Part shown: piece after piece, positions 58,168 to 63,949 of the stretch
Layout: the number at the start of each line of letters is the position of its first letter
How positions within the stretch are numbered: the stretch's first letter is position 1
Notes under the pieces: model-generated
Told to the model about the DNA's origin: nothing
Seen by the model: only the letters and a program-made list of their open reading frames with translations
The model's database searches: none
Assembly: GCA_937944385.1 (NCBI GenBank)
Contig: CALDYQ010000047.1
Span: 61,000-124,999, forward strand
Reading direction: 5' to 3'
Origin: an uncultured Burkholderiales bacterium
GTDB lineage: Bacteria; Pseudomonadota; Gammaproteobacteria; Burkholderiales; Casimicrobiaceae
Length of the DNA: 64,000 nucleotides
Program-made: the position numbers and the translations under genes

Positions 58168-58707
58168 ATGAACGGATTCCACGGCACCACGATCGTGGCG
58201 GTGCGGCGCGGCAACGCGGTCGCCCTGGGCGGTGATGGCCAGGTCACGCTCGGCAACCAGATCATCAAGGCCACCGCGCGCAAGGTGCGACGGCTGCACG
58301 AAGGCCGCGTGCTCGCGGGCTTTGCCGGCGCAACGGCGGATGCCTTCACGCTCTTCGAACGCTTCGAGGCCAAGCTCGACAAGCATCAGGGCCAGCTCAC
58401 GCGCGCCGCGGTGGAACTCGCCAAGGACTGGCGGCAGGATCGCATGCTGCGCCGGCTCGAGGCGATGCTCGCCGTGGCCGATGCCACGGCCTCGCTCGTG
58501 ATCACCGGCAACGGCGACGTGCTCGAGCCGGAGCACGGCATCGTCGCCATCGGCTCCGGCGGCGGCTTTGCGCTGGCGGCGGCGCGAGCCCTCGCCTCGC
58601 ACACGGCCCTCTCCGCGCGAGAGATCGTGGCGGAGTCTCTCAAAGTGGCAGGGGAGATCTGTATCTACACGAACCAGCAGCACACGATCGAGGAGCTCAG
58701 TTGGTAA
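58168..58707 (+). CDS. hslV: HslV, ATP-dependent protease proteolytic subunit
   Basis: A 179-residue proteasome-like peptidase. After a short propeptide (MNGFHG) the catalytic Thr begins [42 protein letters not shown] (abbreviated) and [11 protein letters not shown] are family blocks. Normally hslU, encoding the unfoldase, follows directly. Here the next gene is a flavin monooxygenase that overlaps by 7 bases. The hslU gene may be elsewhere. Confidence 0.95.
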
Positions 58708-59957
58708 ACGCGGGGTTTTCCTCGACCGCATCGGCGTGGCCGACACGGCCGGCGGACGTGGCCATCGTCGGCGGCGGCCCGGTCGGCTGGGCCTTCGCGC
58801 TTGCGAGCCGGCACGCCCTCGGTGCCGAGGCCCGCATCATCGTCTGTGACCCGCAGCGGCCGCAGGCACCAGCTGATCAGGCCCCCTTGGGCGCGCGGGT
58901 CTATCTCGTCGCCGAGGGGCATCTGCGCTGGCTCGCGGCCTCCGGCGTGTGTCTGCCTTCGACCCGGAGTGCCGAGGTCTCACGCATCGAAGTGCTCGCG
59001 ACCGACGGACGCGCACAGCTCATGATCGATGCGTCGGATGCGGCTGCCGAGCGCCTGGGCCTCACGATCGAGCATGATGCGTTGACCGCCGCAATCGCGA
59101 GTCACGCGCGGACGCTTGGCGTGACCCAGCACGCGGTTCGGGTCGAGGCGCTCACGATGCTCGATGGCGTGCGCTGGGTCGAGACAGCGGACGGCGCGCT
59201 CGAGGCGGCGCGACTCGTGGTGCTGGCCGATGGTCGGCACGGCGCGCTCGCCAAACGCGCGGGCTTCGAACGGCTCGAGCGCGACTATGGGCAGGTGGGC
59301 GTGGTCGCGCATTTCCGGCTCGGTCGCCGGGACGGGGGCGCGGCGCGGCAGTGGTTTCTGCCCGATGGCTCGATCCTCGCGCTTCTGCCCCTGGCCGACC
59401 CGCAAGCGCCGCAGGATGGCTCGCCGGGCAACTCCTGCGTGTCCTTGGTCTGGTCATGCGCAACCGAGCGGGGCGAGGCGCTTCTTGCTCTGGGGCCAAA
59501 GGCGCTCACCGAGGCTGTACGAGAGGTGGCTGGTCGCGCCGTCGGTCTCGCCGAGTGCATCTCGGCGCCTGTTGCATTTCCGCTCACGCTCGCCCGCGTG
59601 GCGGATCCGGTCGGTGAACGCCTCCTGCTTGCCGGAGATGCCGCGCACGCGGTGCATCCGCTCGCTGGACAGGGCGTGAACCTCGGTCTGGCCGATGCGC
59701 GCGTGTGGCAGGCAGTGCTCGCTGAAGCGCGCGCGGTGGGATGTGATGCCGGGCACGCCTTGCTCTTGTCGCGCCACCGGCGTCGTCGGCAGGGCCCGGT
59801 GCTCGCGATGCAGGCCACGATCGACGGTCTGTGGCGTCTCTACAATCGGGCGCCAGCCCCGCTTGCAGAGCTTTCGGGGCGTGCAATGCGCGCCCTGTCG
59901 TCCCTGCCCGCATTTCGTCATCGACTGGCTGGCGCGGCAGTCCAGATTGCCGTGTAG
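58701..59957 (+). CDS. UbiH/Coq6-family FAD monooxygenase
   Basis: A 418-residue flavoprotein hydroxylase starting at TTG 58701, overlapping hslV. It has the Rossmann motif [15 protein letters not shown] at 20-34, [10 protein letters not shown], and the C-terminal [19 protein letters not shown]. In Betaproteobacteria this enzyme, next to a DsbC gene, is placed in ubiquinone ring hydroxylation (UbiH/UbiF/VisC group). Which ring position it acts on is not clear. Confidence 0.85.
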
Positions 59958-59984
59958 TTGCCGCGCTCATCGAGGAATTCGTCC

Positions 59985-60812
59985 ATGCTTCGCCCCGCTC
60001 ACTTTCTCCTGCCCTTTGCCGCGGCCGTCGTGCTGGCCAGTACGGCCTGCGAGGCGCAGCAGCCCGCCCGCAGCGCGGCTCAACGACCCGCCGCCCAGGC
60101 TGCGGCTGCGCCAGTGTCCTCCGGCGAGCTGGCCGCGATCGAGAAGGCACTGACCGAGCGCTTTCGCGGCGCACCGGTCAAGGGCTTGCGCGCATCGGTT
60201 TTTCCCGGTGTGTATGAGGCGATGATTGGCGACGACCTCATCTACTTCGATGCCAAAGTCAATCACTTCATCGTCGGCAATCTCGTCGAGGCCGCCACGA
60301 TGAAGAACCTGACCGAAGAGCGGGCGGCCGAGCTGAAGGCGATCGACGTCAAGCAGCTGCCGCTCGACGATGCGATCAAGTTCGTACGCGGCAATGGCGA
60401 GCGGGTCATGTACCTCTTTTCGGATGTCGACTGCCCGTTCTGCACCCGGCTCGAAACCACGTTGCAGGACATCGACAACATCACGGTCTACATCTTCATG
60501 TACCCGATCGACAGCCTGCATCCGGCTGCGCGGGCAAAGCAAAAGGCCATCTGGTGCGCCAAAGATCGCCTGGCCGCCTGGCAAGACGCCGTGCTGCGGC
60601 GCAAGTTCGACCCGAACGCGAAGGGCGATTGCGACAACCCGGTCGACCGCACGGTGGAGCTCGGCCAGAAGCTCGGTGTCCGCGCCACGCCGACCTTCTT
60701 CCTCGCCGATGGCCGCATGGTGGCCGGAGCGCTGCCGAAGGACCGGATCGAAGCCGCCTTGAACGCCGCTCAGGCCAAGGTTCGACAACCCGCCGGCGCA
60801 TCCACGAAGTGA
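59985..60812 (+). CDS. DsbC-family thiol-disulfide isomerase
   Basis: A 275-residue periplasmic protein. Signal peptide to about residue 22, dimerisation domain (about 60-120), then thioredoxin fold with CPFC at 150-153 (SDVDCPFCTRLE) and cis-Pro RATPTFF. A second pair, Cys in WCAKD and GDCDN, is also a DsbC trait. It has an Ala-rich linker (about 24-43). The ATG at 59985 has GAGGA 8 bases upstream. It is in tandem with the monooxygenase gene. Confidence 0.92.
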   Translation: MLRPAHFLLPFAAAVVLASTACEAQQPARSAAQRPAAQAAAAPVSSGELAAIEKALTERFRGAPVKGLRASVFPGVYEAMIGDDLIYFDAKVNHFIVGNLVEAATMKNLTEERAAELKAIDVKQLPLDDAIKFVRGNGERVMYLFSDVDCPFCTRLETTLQDIDNITVYIFMYPIDSLHPAARAKQKAIWCAKDRLAAWQDAVLRRKFDPNAKGDCDNPVDRTVELGQKLGVRATPTFFLADGRMVAGALPKDRIEAALNAAQAKVRQPAGASTK

Positions 60813-60860
60813 CGGCGTGAATTCGTCGCGCGACACGTCTTTTCCCGAAAGGAGACTGCC

Positions 60861-61973
60861 ATGGCCCTGATGGACTTCATCCGCAAGGAACTGATCGAGA
60901 TCATCGAGTGGACCGATGACTCACGCGACACGCTCGCCTACCGCTGGCCGGATCAGGACAAGCAGATCAAGAACAACGCGCAGCTGATCGTGCGCGAAAG
61001 CCAGGTCGCCCAGTTCGTCTATCTCGGGCAGTACGCCGATACGCTCGGCCCGGGCAAGCACACGCTCAAGACCGACAACATCCCGATCCTCTCCACGCTG
61101 CTCGGCTGGAAGTACGGCTTCGAGACCCCGTTCAAGGCGGATGTCTACTACGTCGTCACCCGCGTCTTCCCCGGCAACAAGTGGGGCACGGCCAATCCGA
61201 TCATGCTGCGTGACCCGGACTTCGGCGTCGTGCGGGTCCGGGCCTACGGCCAGTACGACTTCAAGATCGTCAATCCGCCGCTCTTCCTGAAGGAAGTCGC
61301 CGGCACCGATCACCACTTCCGTCTCGACGAGTTCATCGACGTCATGCGCTCGAAGATCGTCACTGTCTTCACCGAGGCGATCGCCAACGCCAAGGTGCCG
61401 GTGCTCGACGTGGCGGGCCGCTACAGCGAGATCGGCAACGCGCTCCTGCCCGGCATCAACCCGGTCACCACGTCCAAGTACGGCATCGAGATCACCTCGT
61501 TCAACATCGAGAACGTCTCCCTGCCGCCCGAGGTCGAGCAGGCCATCGACAAGCGCGGGGCGATGACCACGATCGGCGACATGGGCGAGTACATCCGCTA
61601 CAACATGGCGAATGCCGTGGGCGAGGGCAAGGCCGGCACGATGGGCTTTGGTGCCGAGTTCGCTGCGGCCATGGCGCTCGGCCAGCAGATGATCAACCAG
61701 CCCGGCGGGGCCGTGGGCGCGAATCCTGCAGCGCCGAAGGGCATGGTGCCCGGCGCGATGGGCGTCACGGCGGCTGCACAGGCCGCAGCACCCGCCGCCG
61801 CAGCCGCTGCCGCGCCGGTCGACCTCATGAATCCTGCGCAGGTGGCGCAGATGCTGGGCGTGGGTGAGGCCGATGTGCTCGCCGAGTTGGAGGCCGGCAA
61901 CTTGAAGGGCCGCAAGATCGGCACCCAGTGGCGGGTGACGCGTGAAGCCGTGGATGCCTTCCTGAAAGGCTGA
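60861..61973 (+). CDS. SPFH-domain protein with C-terminal excisionase-like helix-turn-helix
   Basis: A 370-residue protein. Residues 1-220 form an SPFH/band-7-like domain in the virion-core/YdjI group (MDFIRKELIEIIEW, then LIVRESQVAQFVYLG). A low-complexity Ala/Gly/Pro linker (about 265-325) leads to a helix-turn-helix-type module (AQVAQMLGVGEADVLAELEA, then GRKIGTQWRVTREAVDAFL) like MerR/excisionase domains. In Bacillus the YdjI homologue is part of the pspA-ydjGHI membrane-stress operon. AAGGAG precedes the ATG. Confidence 0.85.
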   Translation: MALMDFIRKELIEIIEWTDDSRDTLAYRWPDQDKQIKNNAQLIVRESQVAQFVYLGQYADTLGPGKHTLKTDNIPILSTLLGWKYGFETPFKADVYYVVTRVFPGNKWGTANPIMLRDPDFGVVRVRAYGQYDFKIVNPPLFLKEVAGTDHHFRLDEFIDVMRSKIVTVFTEAIANAKVPVLDVAGRYSEIGNALLPGINPVTTSKYGIEITSFNIENVSLPPEVEQAIDKRGAMTTIGDMGEYIRYNMANAVGEGKAGTMGFGAEFAAAMALGQQMINQPGGAVGANPAAPKGMVPGAMGVTAAAQAAAPAAAAAAAPVDLMNPAQVAQMLGVGEADVLAELEAGNLKGRKIGTQWRVTREAVDAFLKG

Positions 61974-61988
61974 TTCCCGCCGCTCGCC

Positions 61989-63161
61989 ATGCCCGCCCCT
62001 GGCACGCCCGGCAGCGCCACGCACGGCGCCGCCACCGCGCCCGAGAAGGCTGCGCGCAGCAAGTACAGCTGTGTCGCCTGCGGGGGCGAGGCCATCTGGA
62101 ACCCCGGCAAGCAGAAACTCGTCTGTGCATTCTGCGGCACCGAGGCACCGATGCCGCTTCACGAGGCGGCACCGCCCGGGCTGCAGTCGACCGACATCGT
62201 CGAGCACGACCTCGCTGCGGCGCTGCGCAACATGCAGGGGGAAAAGCGCGGCTGGGCGCGCACGTCACGCATGATCCAGTGTCGGCAGTGCCGCGCGATC
62301 AGCGTGTTCTCGGCGGAGAAGCAGGCGCAGCGCTGCGACTTCTGCGGCTCGGCCTCGGTGGTCGATTACGACAGCGACGAGGACGTGATCCGGCCCGAGG
62401 CCGTGCTGCCGATCCAGATCGCCGAACCCCGCGCGCGAGAGATCATCCGCGCCTGGTACGGCAAGCTCTGGTGGGCGCCCAACGCCCTCAAGAAGCGCGC
62501 ACTCACCGATACGGCCAAGGGCGTCTATCTCCCCTACTGGACTTTCGACGCCTTCGTCAATGCGCGCTGGCAGGCCGAGGCCGGCTACTACTACACCGAG
62601 ACAGAGACTTATTGGGACCGCGGGCAGATGAAGAGCCGGCCGGTGCAGCGCATCCGCTGGCAATACGCGCAGGGACAGTTGAACCACTTCTTCGACGACA
62701 CCCTCGTCTGCGGCTCGAAGGGCGTTCATGCGGGGCTCCTGCGCTCGATCGAGCCCTTTCCGACGACCGAGCGCGGGGTCGGCGCCCTCCGGCCGTATGA
62801 CCCGGCTTACGTCGCTGGCTGGACCGTCGAGCGCTACCAGATCGACTTGATCCAGGCGGCGAAACTCTCGCGTGAACGCATGCTGGCCGACACCCGGGTG
62901 CTCTGCGCGCAGCAGGTGCCGGGCGACACCCATCGCAACCTGCAGGTCGAGGCCACGTTCTCCCGACAGACCTTCAAGCACATCCTGGCACCCGTCTGGC
63001 TCATGAGCTACGTCTACAACGGACGTGACTTTCAGGTCATCATCAACGCGGTGACCGGCAAGATCGACGGCGAGTATCCGAAGAGCTGGGTCAAGATCAC
63101 ATTGGCGACCCTCGGTGCCATCGTGCTCGCATTCATTCTGCTTGCCATCATGGGACGATGA
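61989..63161 (+). CDS. TFIIB-type zinc-ribbon membrane protein, partner of SPFH protein
   Basis: A 390-residue protein with two zinc ribbons: CVACGGEA...CAFCGTE (about 28-50) and CRQCRA...CDFCGSA (about 98-122). A central domain has GVYLPYWTFDAFVNARWQAEAGYYYT (abbreviated) and FDDTLVCGSKGV; one C-terminal membrane span (about 366-388). Architecture matches B. subtilis YdjG-like proteins paired with SPFH genes. It starts 15 bases after the SPFH stop and overlaps the DUF3025 gene by 4 bases. Confidence 0.85.
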   Translation: MPAPGTPGSATHGAATAPEKAARSKYSCVACGGEAIWNPGKQKLVCAFCGTEAPMPLHEAAPPGLQSTDIVEHDLAAALRNMQGEKRGWARTSRMIQCRQCRAISVFSAEKQAQRCDFCGSASVVDYDSDEDVIRPEAVLPIQIAEPRAREIIRAWYGKLWWAPNALKKRALTDTAKGVYLPYWTFDAFVNARWQAEAGYYYTETETYWDRGQMKSRPVQRIRWQYAQGQLNHFFDDTLVCGSKGVHAGLLRSIEPFPTTERGVGALRPYDPAYVAGWTVERYQIDLIQAAKLSRERMLADTRVLCAQQVPGDTHRNLQVEATFSRQTFKHILAPVWLMSYVYNGRDFQVIINAVTGKIDGEYPKSWVKITLATLGAIVLAFILLAIMGR

Positions 63162-63949
63162 CGCCGGCGCTGGCATCCTGCGCCGTCGACTTGCCCGGGC
63201 GTTTTCTCGATCATCCAATCTTCGCGCCCTATCGCAGCGCTTGGCCGCCGGAGGCCACCGGCTCGCCGCGACTCGTACCGGCGCCCCGGGGGAGCCCGGG
63301 CGCGCTCGCCTTCGAGCGGGCAATCGTCGAGCGGGATGAACTGCACGTGCGGCCGGGCAACCTGCACGATGCTTTGAATGCCGTCGTATGGCGCACCTTT
63401 CCGGCCGCCAAGCGTGCGATCAGTGCGTGGCACGTCGATCTCGGTCACGACCCGAAGTCGCCCAGCGGGCGGCCGCGCGGACGCGATGTGCTCACGCTCT
63501 TCGACGAGGCGGGGCTCCTGCTCGTCTCGCCCGAAGCCGAGGCGCTCGCCGCGGCGAACGCGCGGCACGACTGGCATGCGCTCTTCGTCGTCGGCCGGGC
63601 GCGCTGGCACGCCACGATCCGGCCGATCGTCTTTGGCCATGGTGCGCTCGAGCAGATGGCAAAGAGCTTCGCTCGACACGACGCCCCCTTGATCCAGCGC
63701 GACCTCACGCTCAAGGCGCTCTGGCTCGACGGTGAGCCGGCTGCGCCGCTTGCCGACATCGACAGCGCGCTCGCTCGATCGATCCGGGCTGGAACAGCCC
63801 TCTACGCGGAGGAGCGCCGTCTACCCCTGCCCGTGATCGGCGTGCCCGGATGGTTTGCTGAGAGCGAGGATGCTGCGCTGTATGACGATCGTGCGGTCTT
63901 TCGCCCGGCGCGTTCGATCAGGCGGTCAGCACTGTGTGCAGCATCTTGA
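63158..63949 (+). CDS. DUF3025 protein
   Basis: A 263-residue cytoplasmic protein with the family blocks LHDALNAVVWRTFPAAKRAIS (abbreviated) and LIQRDLTLKALWLDG. DUF3025 is common in Betaproteobacteria and of unknown role. It overlaps the preceding gene in ATGA form, and its 3' end overlaps the convergent gene at the right edge by 32 bases. Confidence 0.85.
   Translation: MTPALASCAVDLPGRFLDHPIFAPYRSAWPPEATGSPRLVPAPRGSPGALAFERAIVERDELHVRPGNLHDALNAVVWRTFPAAKRAISAWHVDLGHDPKSPSGRPRGRDVLTLFDEAGLLLVSPEAEALAAANARHDWHALFVVGRARWHATIRPIVFGHGALEQMAKSFARHDAPLIQRDLTLKALWLDGEPAAPLADIDSALARSIRAGTALYAEERRLPLPVIGVPGWFAESEDAALYDDRAVFRPARSIRRSALCAAS

Follow-up and report, generated by a model that had tools for sequence, protein, structure and literature searches.

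The window analysed here is a 64,000-nucleotide stretch (G000:C47:61000-124999) of a 2.54 Mb genome assembled in 98 contigs. It carries a gene for an SPFH protein with a C-terminal helix-turn-helix (HTH), followed by a gene for a zinc-ribbon membrane protein, hereafter the partner. The features of the locus, with the evidence for each in brackets, are as follows:

60861..61973, + strand: SPFH protein of the YdjI type (PF13421) with C-terminal HTH_17 (Pfam, hydropathy, AF2 model, Foldseek)
61563..61820, + strand: post-SPFH helices and Ala/Pro/Gly-rich linker, residues ~235-320 (pLDDT, low conservation)
61824..61967, + strand: predicted winged helix-turn-helix, residues 322-369 (HTH_17, AF2, conservation, charge comparison)
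61989..63161, + strand: YdjG-type partner with two zinc ribbons, a long-stranded beta domain and a C-terminal, tail-anchor-like membrane helix (alignment, AF2, hydropathy, adjacency of homologues to SPFH genes in several phyla)
63158..63949, + strand: DUF3025 gene, co-linear neighbour (PF11227, 1.1e-47)
59958-60812: upstream neighbour, DsbC-like gene
58701-59957: upstream neighbour, FAD-dependent monooxygenase gene
58168-58707: upstream neighbour, gene for a proteasome-type (HslV-like) subunit

A Shine-Dalgarno-like AAAGGAG can be read at 60848-60854, ahead of the SPFH gene. The initial annotation described an operon of overlapping genes. Such an overlap exists between the partner and DUF3025 genes (4 bases, ATGA, 63158-63161) but not between the SPFH and partner genes, where the stop codon ends at 61973 and the next ATG lies at 61989, leaving a gap of 15 bases. 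DUF3025, also listed initially with the system, lies next to the pair in none of the relatives compared except those closest to the window; because of this lineage-local occurrence it was rejected as a component and is probably outside the system. Gene clusters c2-c5, including those of the DsbC-like protein and the FAD monooxygenase, were likewise rejected as conserved companions, as they reflect local synteny. No third gene conserved across phyla was found in the neighbourhoods of the relatives compared, and no client for the scaffold emerged from them.

The SPFH protein and its partner

The SPFH gene encodes 370 amino acids. Residues 27-236 match Band_7_1 (PF13421; 2.7e-79, 266 bits against a gathering cut-off of 24), which places the protein in the YdjI-type family, and residues 322-369 match HTH_17 (PF12728; 1.4e-8, above the Pfam cut-off). 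The two are linked by an Ala/Pro/Gly-rich stretch (~284-320) that is predicted to be disordered in the AF2 model; pLDDT is below 50 over most of residues 230-319, and this region is poorly conserved. The fusion across an Ala/Pro-rich linker that had been proposed from the sequence therefore holds. The AF2 model as a whole is moderate (mean pLDDT 66.6, pTM 0.50), with its SPFH part nearest to human stomatin, HflC (HflK/C), prohibitin and flotillin (Foldseek; best E 1e-8, probability 1.00). The protein has no membrane span of its own, its top 19-residue hydropathy being 1.29. Among relatives collected from genome contigs, the best 80 of 255 align through the HTH, the 13 nearest at more than 80% identity and the others at about 58-65%, and because of this conservation the fusion is not a chance arrangement. 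This sample is biased, in that one of the search patterns falls inside the HTH and the set was restricted to the 80 best of 255; prevalence was therefore taken from even samples of the class and of a phylum.

The partner (390 amino acids) has no Pfam match above cut-off. It contains two CxxC...CxxC ribbons (C28/31/46/49 and C98/101/116/119), and an alignment of 49 homologues keeps all eight cysteines without exception. Its single membrane helix is C-terminal, at 367-389 (hydropathy 2.7 at 370-388). The two zinc ribbons and one membrane span noted initially are thereby confirmed. YdjG-type proteins are built in this way, with two zinc ribbons ahead of a membrane span; Bacillus YdjG itself has two zinc ribbons, a YpeB-related NTF2-like domain and a membrane segment (Ravi et al., PMC11237479). 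The AF2 model (mean pLDDT 84.9) predicts with high confidence a beta domain (177-343) with strands of ~30 residues (177-210, 213-241, 314-343). No significant match to this domain was found among PDB folds, and the best hit, to beta-pore proteins through the long strands (E 0.02, probability 0.13), was discarded as not meaningful.

In Enterococcus, a stretch without pspA holds together an SPFH protein with a zinc-ribbon-like module, a YdjG-like protein and a TPM protein. The window's partner and the protein beside this SPFH gene are homologous over their full length (26% identity over 93%, E 4e-23), and this Enterococcus locus links the partner directly to the Firmicute YdjG setting. The pair is homologous to Bacillus YdjI and YdjG, which bears out the resemblance first suggested.

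The winged helix-turn-helix tail and its recognition helix

Within the C-terminal module, AF2 predicts a helix (325-332), a second helix (336-345), a beta-hairpin (350-360) and a third helix (361-369), with block pLDDT of 78-82. As modelled, this layout is that of a winged helix-turn-helix, in keeping with the initial assignment of the module to HTH folds. It is the sole HTH_17 match in the whole window genome (window 61824-61967). The excisionase profile TIGR01764 just misses on the tail (28.4 vs 28.8 bits), and among solved chains the nearest in sequence is that of the phage excisionase-like Gp37 (4j2n, E 0.0019).

The recognition helix (336-345) is acidic, with E336 and D338, and is followed by a basic wing (K349, R/K351, K352, R358). 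Across residues 335-345, which span this helix, net charge averaged -3.07 (range -4 to -2) in 85 distinct homologues. For 25 ordinary HTH_17 domains, taken as controls from other genomes in the class, the corresponding mean was +1.2 (range -1 to +4). Because the 85 homologues share descent, this comparison holds far fewer independent points than rows. E336 is kept in 83/85 homologues and D338 in 85/85; where the control domains typically have Tyr and Arg/Lys, the homologues have aliphatic and small residues. The wing is still basic (mean +3.4), with K349 and R358 invariant. The tail thus has the winged fold of HTH_17 and excisionase domains by Pfam and AF2, and lacks their neutral-to-basic recognition helix. 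Since that helix is acidic in every homologue (n=85), the DNA-binding option of the initial annotation, which described an excisionase-like DNA- or protein-binding module, is disfavoured; judging from these residues, ordinary major-groove DNA binding by the tail is unlikely. The basic wing makes some nucleic-acid contact possible.

Distribution, pairing and genomic context

PF13421 occurs in 45/64 genomes of the window's family (as grouped by the genome tool); one genus, with 11 small genomes, is without the SPFH gene. The HTH tail is present at all 30 loci retrieved from this family, of which one is truncated by a contig end. Even sampling of the class (184 genomes) gave strong PF13421 matches (E below 1e-30) in 12 other genomes, and none of these has an HTH nearby. 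By eye, ten of them have a GYF-like domain at the C-terminus, which Pfam confirms for four (L112, L116, L119, L122); one ends in SHOCT, slightly under cut-off (25.5 vs 27 bits); and the last, cut by a contig end, has no recognisable module. The initial annotation had asked whether the extension is general in proteobacterial YdjI-type proteins, and by this survey it is not. In the Verrucomicrobiota, strong matches were found in 18/115 genomes, with an HTH inside the SPFH open reading frame in three of the 18 (including the genome on which the sample was centred) and, among others, GYF_2 or in one case a double zinc ribbon. The HTH tail therefore marks a sub-clade and not the SPFH family as a whole; besides the window's family, this sub-clade includes certain other Burkholderiales as well as Verrucomicrobiota and Acidobacteriota.

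GYF_2 fills the same position in Gammaproteobacteria, Alphaproteobacteria, Actinomycetota and Verrucomicrobiota, SHOCT in one Gammaproteobacterium, and the zinc-ribbon-like module in Enterococcus. Because the HTH is absent from the other strong carriers and other modules stand in its place, the SPFH C-terminus is a swappable slot for an HTH, GYF_2, SHOCT or zinc ribbon. HTH-type sequences separate from the other types weakly in the SPFH tree (0.62) and clearly in the partner tree (0.97), a split that partly reflects how the sequences were gathered.

In most relatives the partner gene adjoins the SPFH gene in neighbourhoods that are otherwise unrelated, and the pair is kept across phyla. Where the partner was not seen beside the SPFH gene, it was located elsewhere in 15/18 genomes. 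Homologous pairs are found on plasmids, of HTH type in Comamonas, of GYF_2 type in Vibrio, Paracoccus and Tsukamurella, and with the zinc-ribbon-like SPFH protein in Enterococcus; that of Paracoccus (L198:1-1775) sits after a toxic anion resistance gene and a DUF2927 gene. At some loci the two genes are separated, either by a DUF4019 gene with an apparent N-terminal signal sequence, limited to sister lineages, or in individual genomes by unrelated single genes (Uma2 nuclease, PDDEXK_3, glutathione S-transferase):

L025:7017-7502, L049:7041-7526, L036:7008-7499, L051:7026-7667: DUF4019 gene between SPFH and partner genes
L005:7105-7695, L043:7169-7978, L069:7151-7870: single-gene insertions between SPFH and partner genes

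A profile search did not find PspA (PF04012) in the window genome, whose assembly is 98.6% complete, with the search's controls positive in 9/14 genomes. The absence of pspA noted at the locus thus extends to the genome, and a PspA encoded elsewhere in it was rejected. Among 44 genomes carrying the HTH type, PspA passes the Pfam cut-off in seven and is absent from 37; in none of the seven does it lie beside the pair in the fetched loci (up to 6 kb on each side, some cut by contig ends). Regular adjacency of pspA, which would have spoken against the initial annotation, was accordingly not seen among the 44 carriers, and a PspA-free state is the rule among them. TPM-domain proteins are encoded in 34/44 carrier genomes. 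The window's is one of these; its tandem TPM pair lies on contig C61 and the SPFH and partner genes on C47, so that the pair has no YdjH-like TPM neighbour.

Proposed function and comparison with known systems

In Bacillus, YdjI is soluble and without a membrane span of its own, it requires YdjG and YdjH to form membrane foci, and it binds, localises and recruits PspA (PMC8581546). On balance, we consider it probable that the window's pair is a PspA-independent scaffold of the YdjI/YdjG type, anchored by the partner and using the HTH as a protein-docking adaptor. Soluble SPFH subunits would assemble into a ring or cage at the cytoplasmic face of the inner membrane, where, by analogy with the need of YdjI for YdjG and YdjH (PMC8581546), the tail-anchored zinc-ribbon partner should hold them. 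From each subunit a winged HTH would dangle on the flexible Ala/Pro linker, so that many copies are displayed. The HTH would have lost ordinary DNA recognition and may dock a protein, bringing either a client or the partner to the scaffold; sister families use this slot for GYF_2, SHOCT or a zinc ribbon. The acidic recognition helix and this exchange of modules are why we read the tail as a protein-docking module, which fits better than DNA binding. By analogy with Bacillus YdjI (PMC8581546), the pair may also have a role in membrane or envelope stress. A bolder proposal, which we regard as tentative, is that an SPFH clade in Burkholderiales, Verrucomicrobiota and Acidobacteriota has repurposed a DNA-binding winged helix of the excisionase type: now acidic, and possibly mimicking DNA, it would serve as a protein-docking adaptor and draw a specific client to a membrane platform that lacks PspA.

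Were the winged HTH to bind DNA after all, the scaffold might tether DNA to the membrane or act as a membrane-bound transcription regulator. The HTH_17 match above cut-off, the kinship with Gp37 (4j2n) and the invariant K349 and R358 of the basic wing are in line with this, but the recognition helix is acidic in 85/85 homologues with its Tyr and Arg/Lys positions now aliphatic or small, the slot elsewhere holds GYF_2, SHOCT or a zinc ribbon and not DNA-binding regulators, and no conserved neighbouring target appears at the relatives' loci; we therefore hold such binding to be quite improbable. Similarly improbable is a docking platform of the Bacillus kind, on which the pair would receive PspA, or some other ESCRT-III-like or TPM-domain protein, from a gene elsewhere. 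Bacillus YdjI, which binds and localises PspA (PMC8581546), speaks for this; the absence of PspA from the window genome and from 37/44 carriers (Pfam cut-off), with none adjacent in the rest, speaks against it. The TPM-domain proteins of 34/44 carriers, the window genome included, and the grouping of SPFH, YdjG-like and TPM genes in Enterococcus are what this platform would predict; TPM proteins are widespread, however, which makes their co-occurrence weak evidence, and the window genome's tandem pair is on another contig.

It is also unlikely, if somewhat less so, that the HTH purely stabilises the assembly by packing against the SPFH ring or the partner itself, with no client recruited. No companion other than the partner is conserved, and the partner sequences that go with HTH-type SPFH proteins group as a separate clade (support 0.97), as packing of this kind would have it, but the long linker, disordered in the AF2 model, suggests reach.

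The SPFH and partner family is already known, and NCBI names one member, Comamonas odontotermitis WP_224153175, 'SPFH and helix-turn-helix domain-containing protein'. A literature search for the SPFH-HTH fusion or COG4260 found no study, and the acidic recognition helix and the comparison of slot domains appear to be undescribed in the literature searched. A pair studied in Bacillus as a PspA receptor is widespread without PspA, and the natural swaps of HTH, GYF_2, SHOCT and zinc ribbon at the swappable docking slot offer a direct route to what bacterial SPFH platforms recruit.

The cages of stomatin, HflK-HflC, prohibitin and flotillin share the SPFH fold with the window protein, without its HTH tail or a zinc-ribbon partner; they mostly have membrane anchors of their own, unlike the window's SPFH protein. 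The SPFH-GYF_2 proteins of Vibrio coralliilyticus (WP_021456962/963), Paracoccus and Tsukamurella belong to the same SPFH family, with the module in the same position and a homologous partner directly downstream; they differ in that GYF_2 replaces the HTH and the partner is only about 26-34% identical. Comamonas odontotermitis WP_224153175 has the architecture of the window's SPFH protein, the gene after it encodes a 'TFIIB-type zinc ribbon-containing protein', and it shows no difference in kind; it is plasmid-borne. Compared with the pspA-ydjGHI operon of Bacillus subtilis (PMC8581546, PMC11237479), the window has an HTH where YdjI has a zinc finger, runs in the order SPFH then partner, and has pspA neither in the operon nor in the genome and no ydjH/TPM neighbour, whereas its combination of an SPFH protein without a span and a membrane-spanning partner matches the arrangement of YdjI and YdjG.
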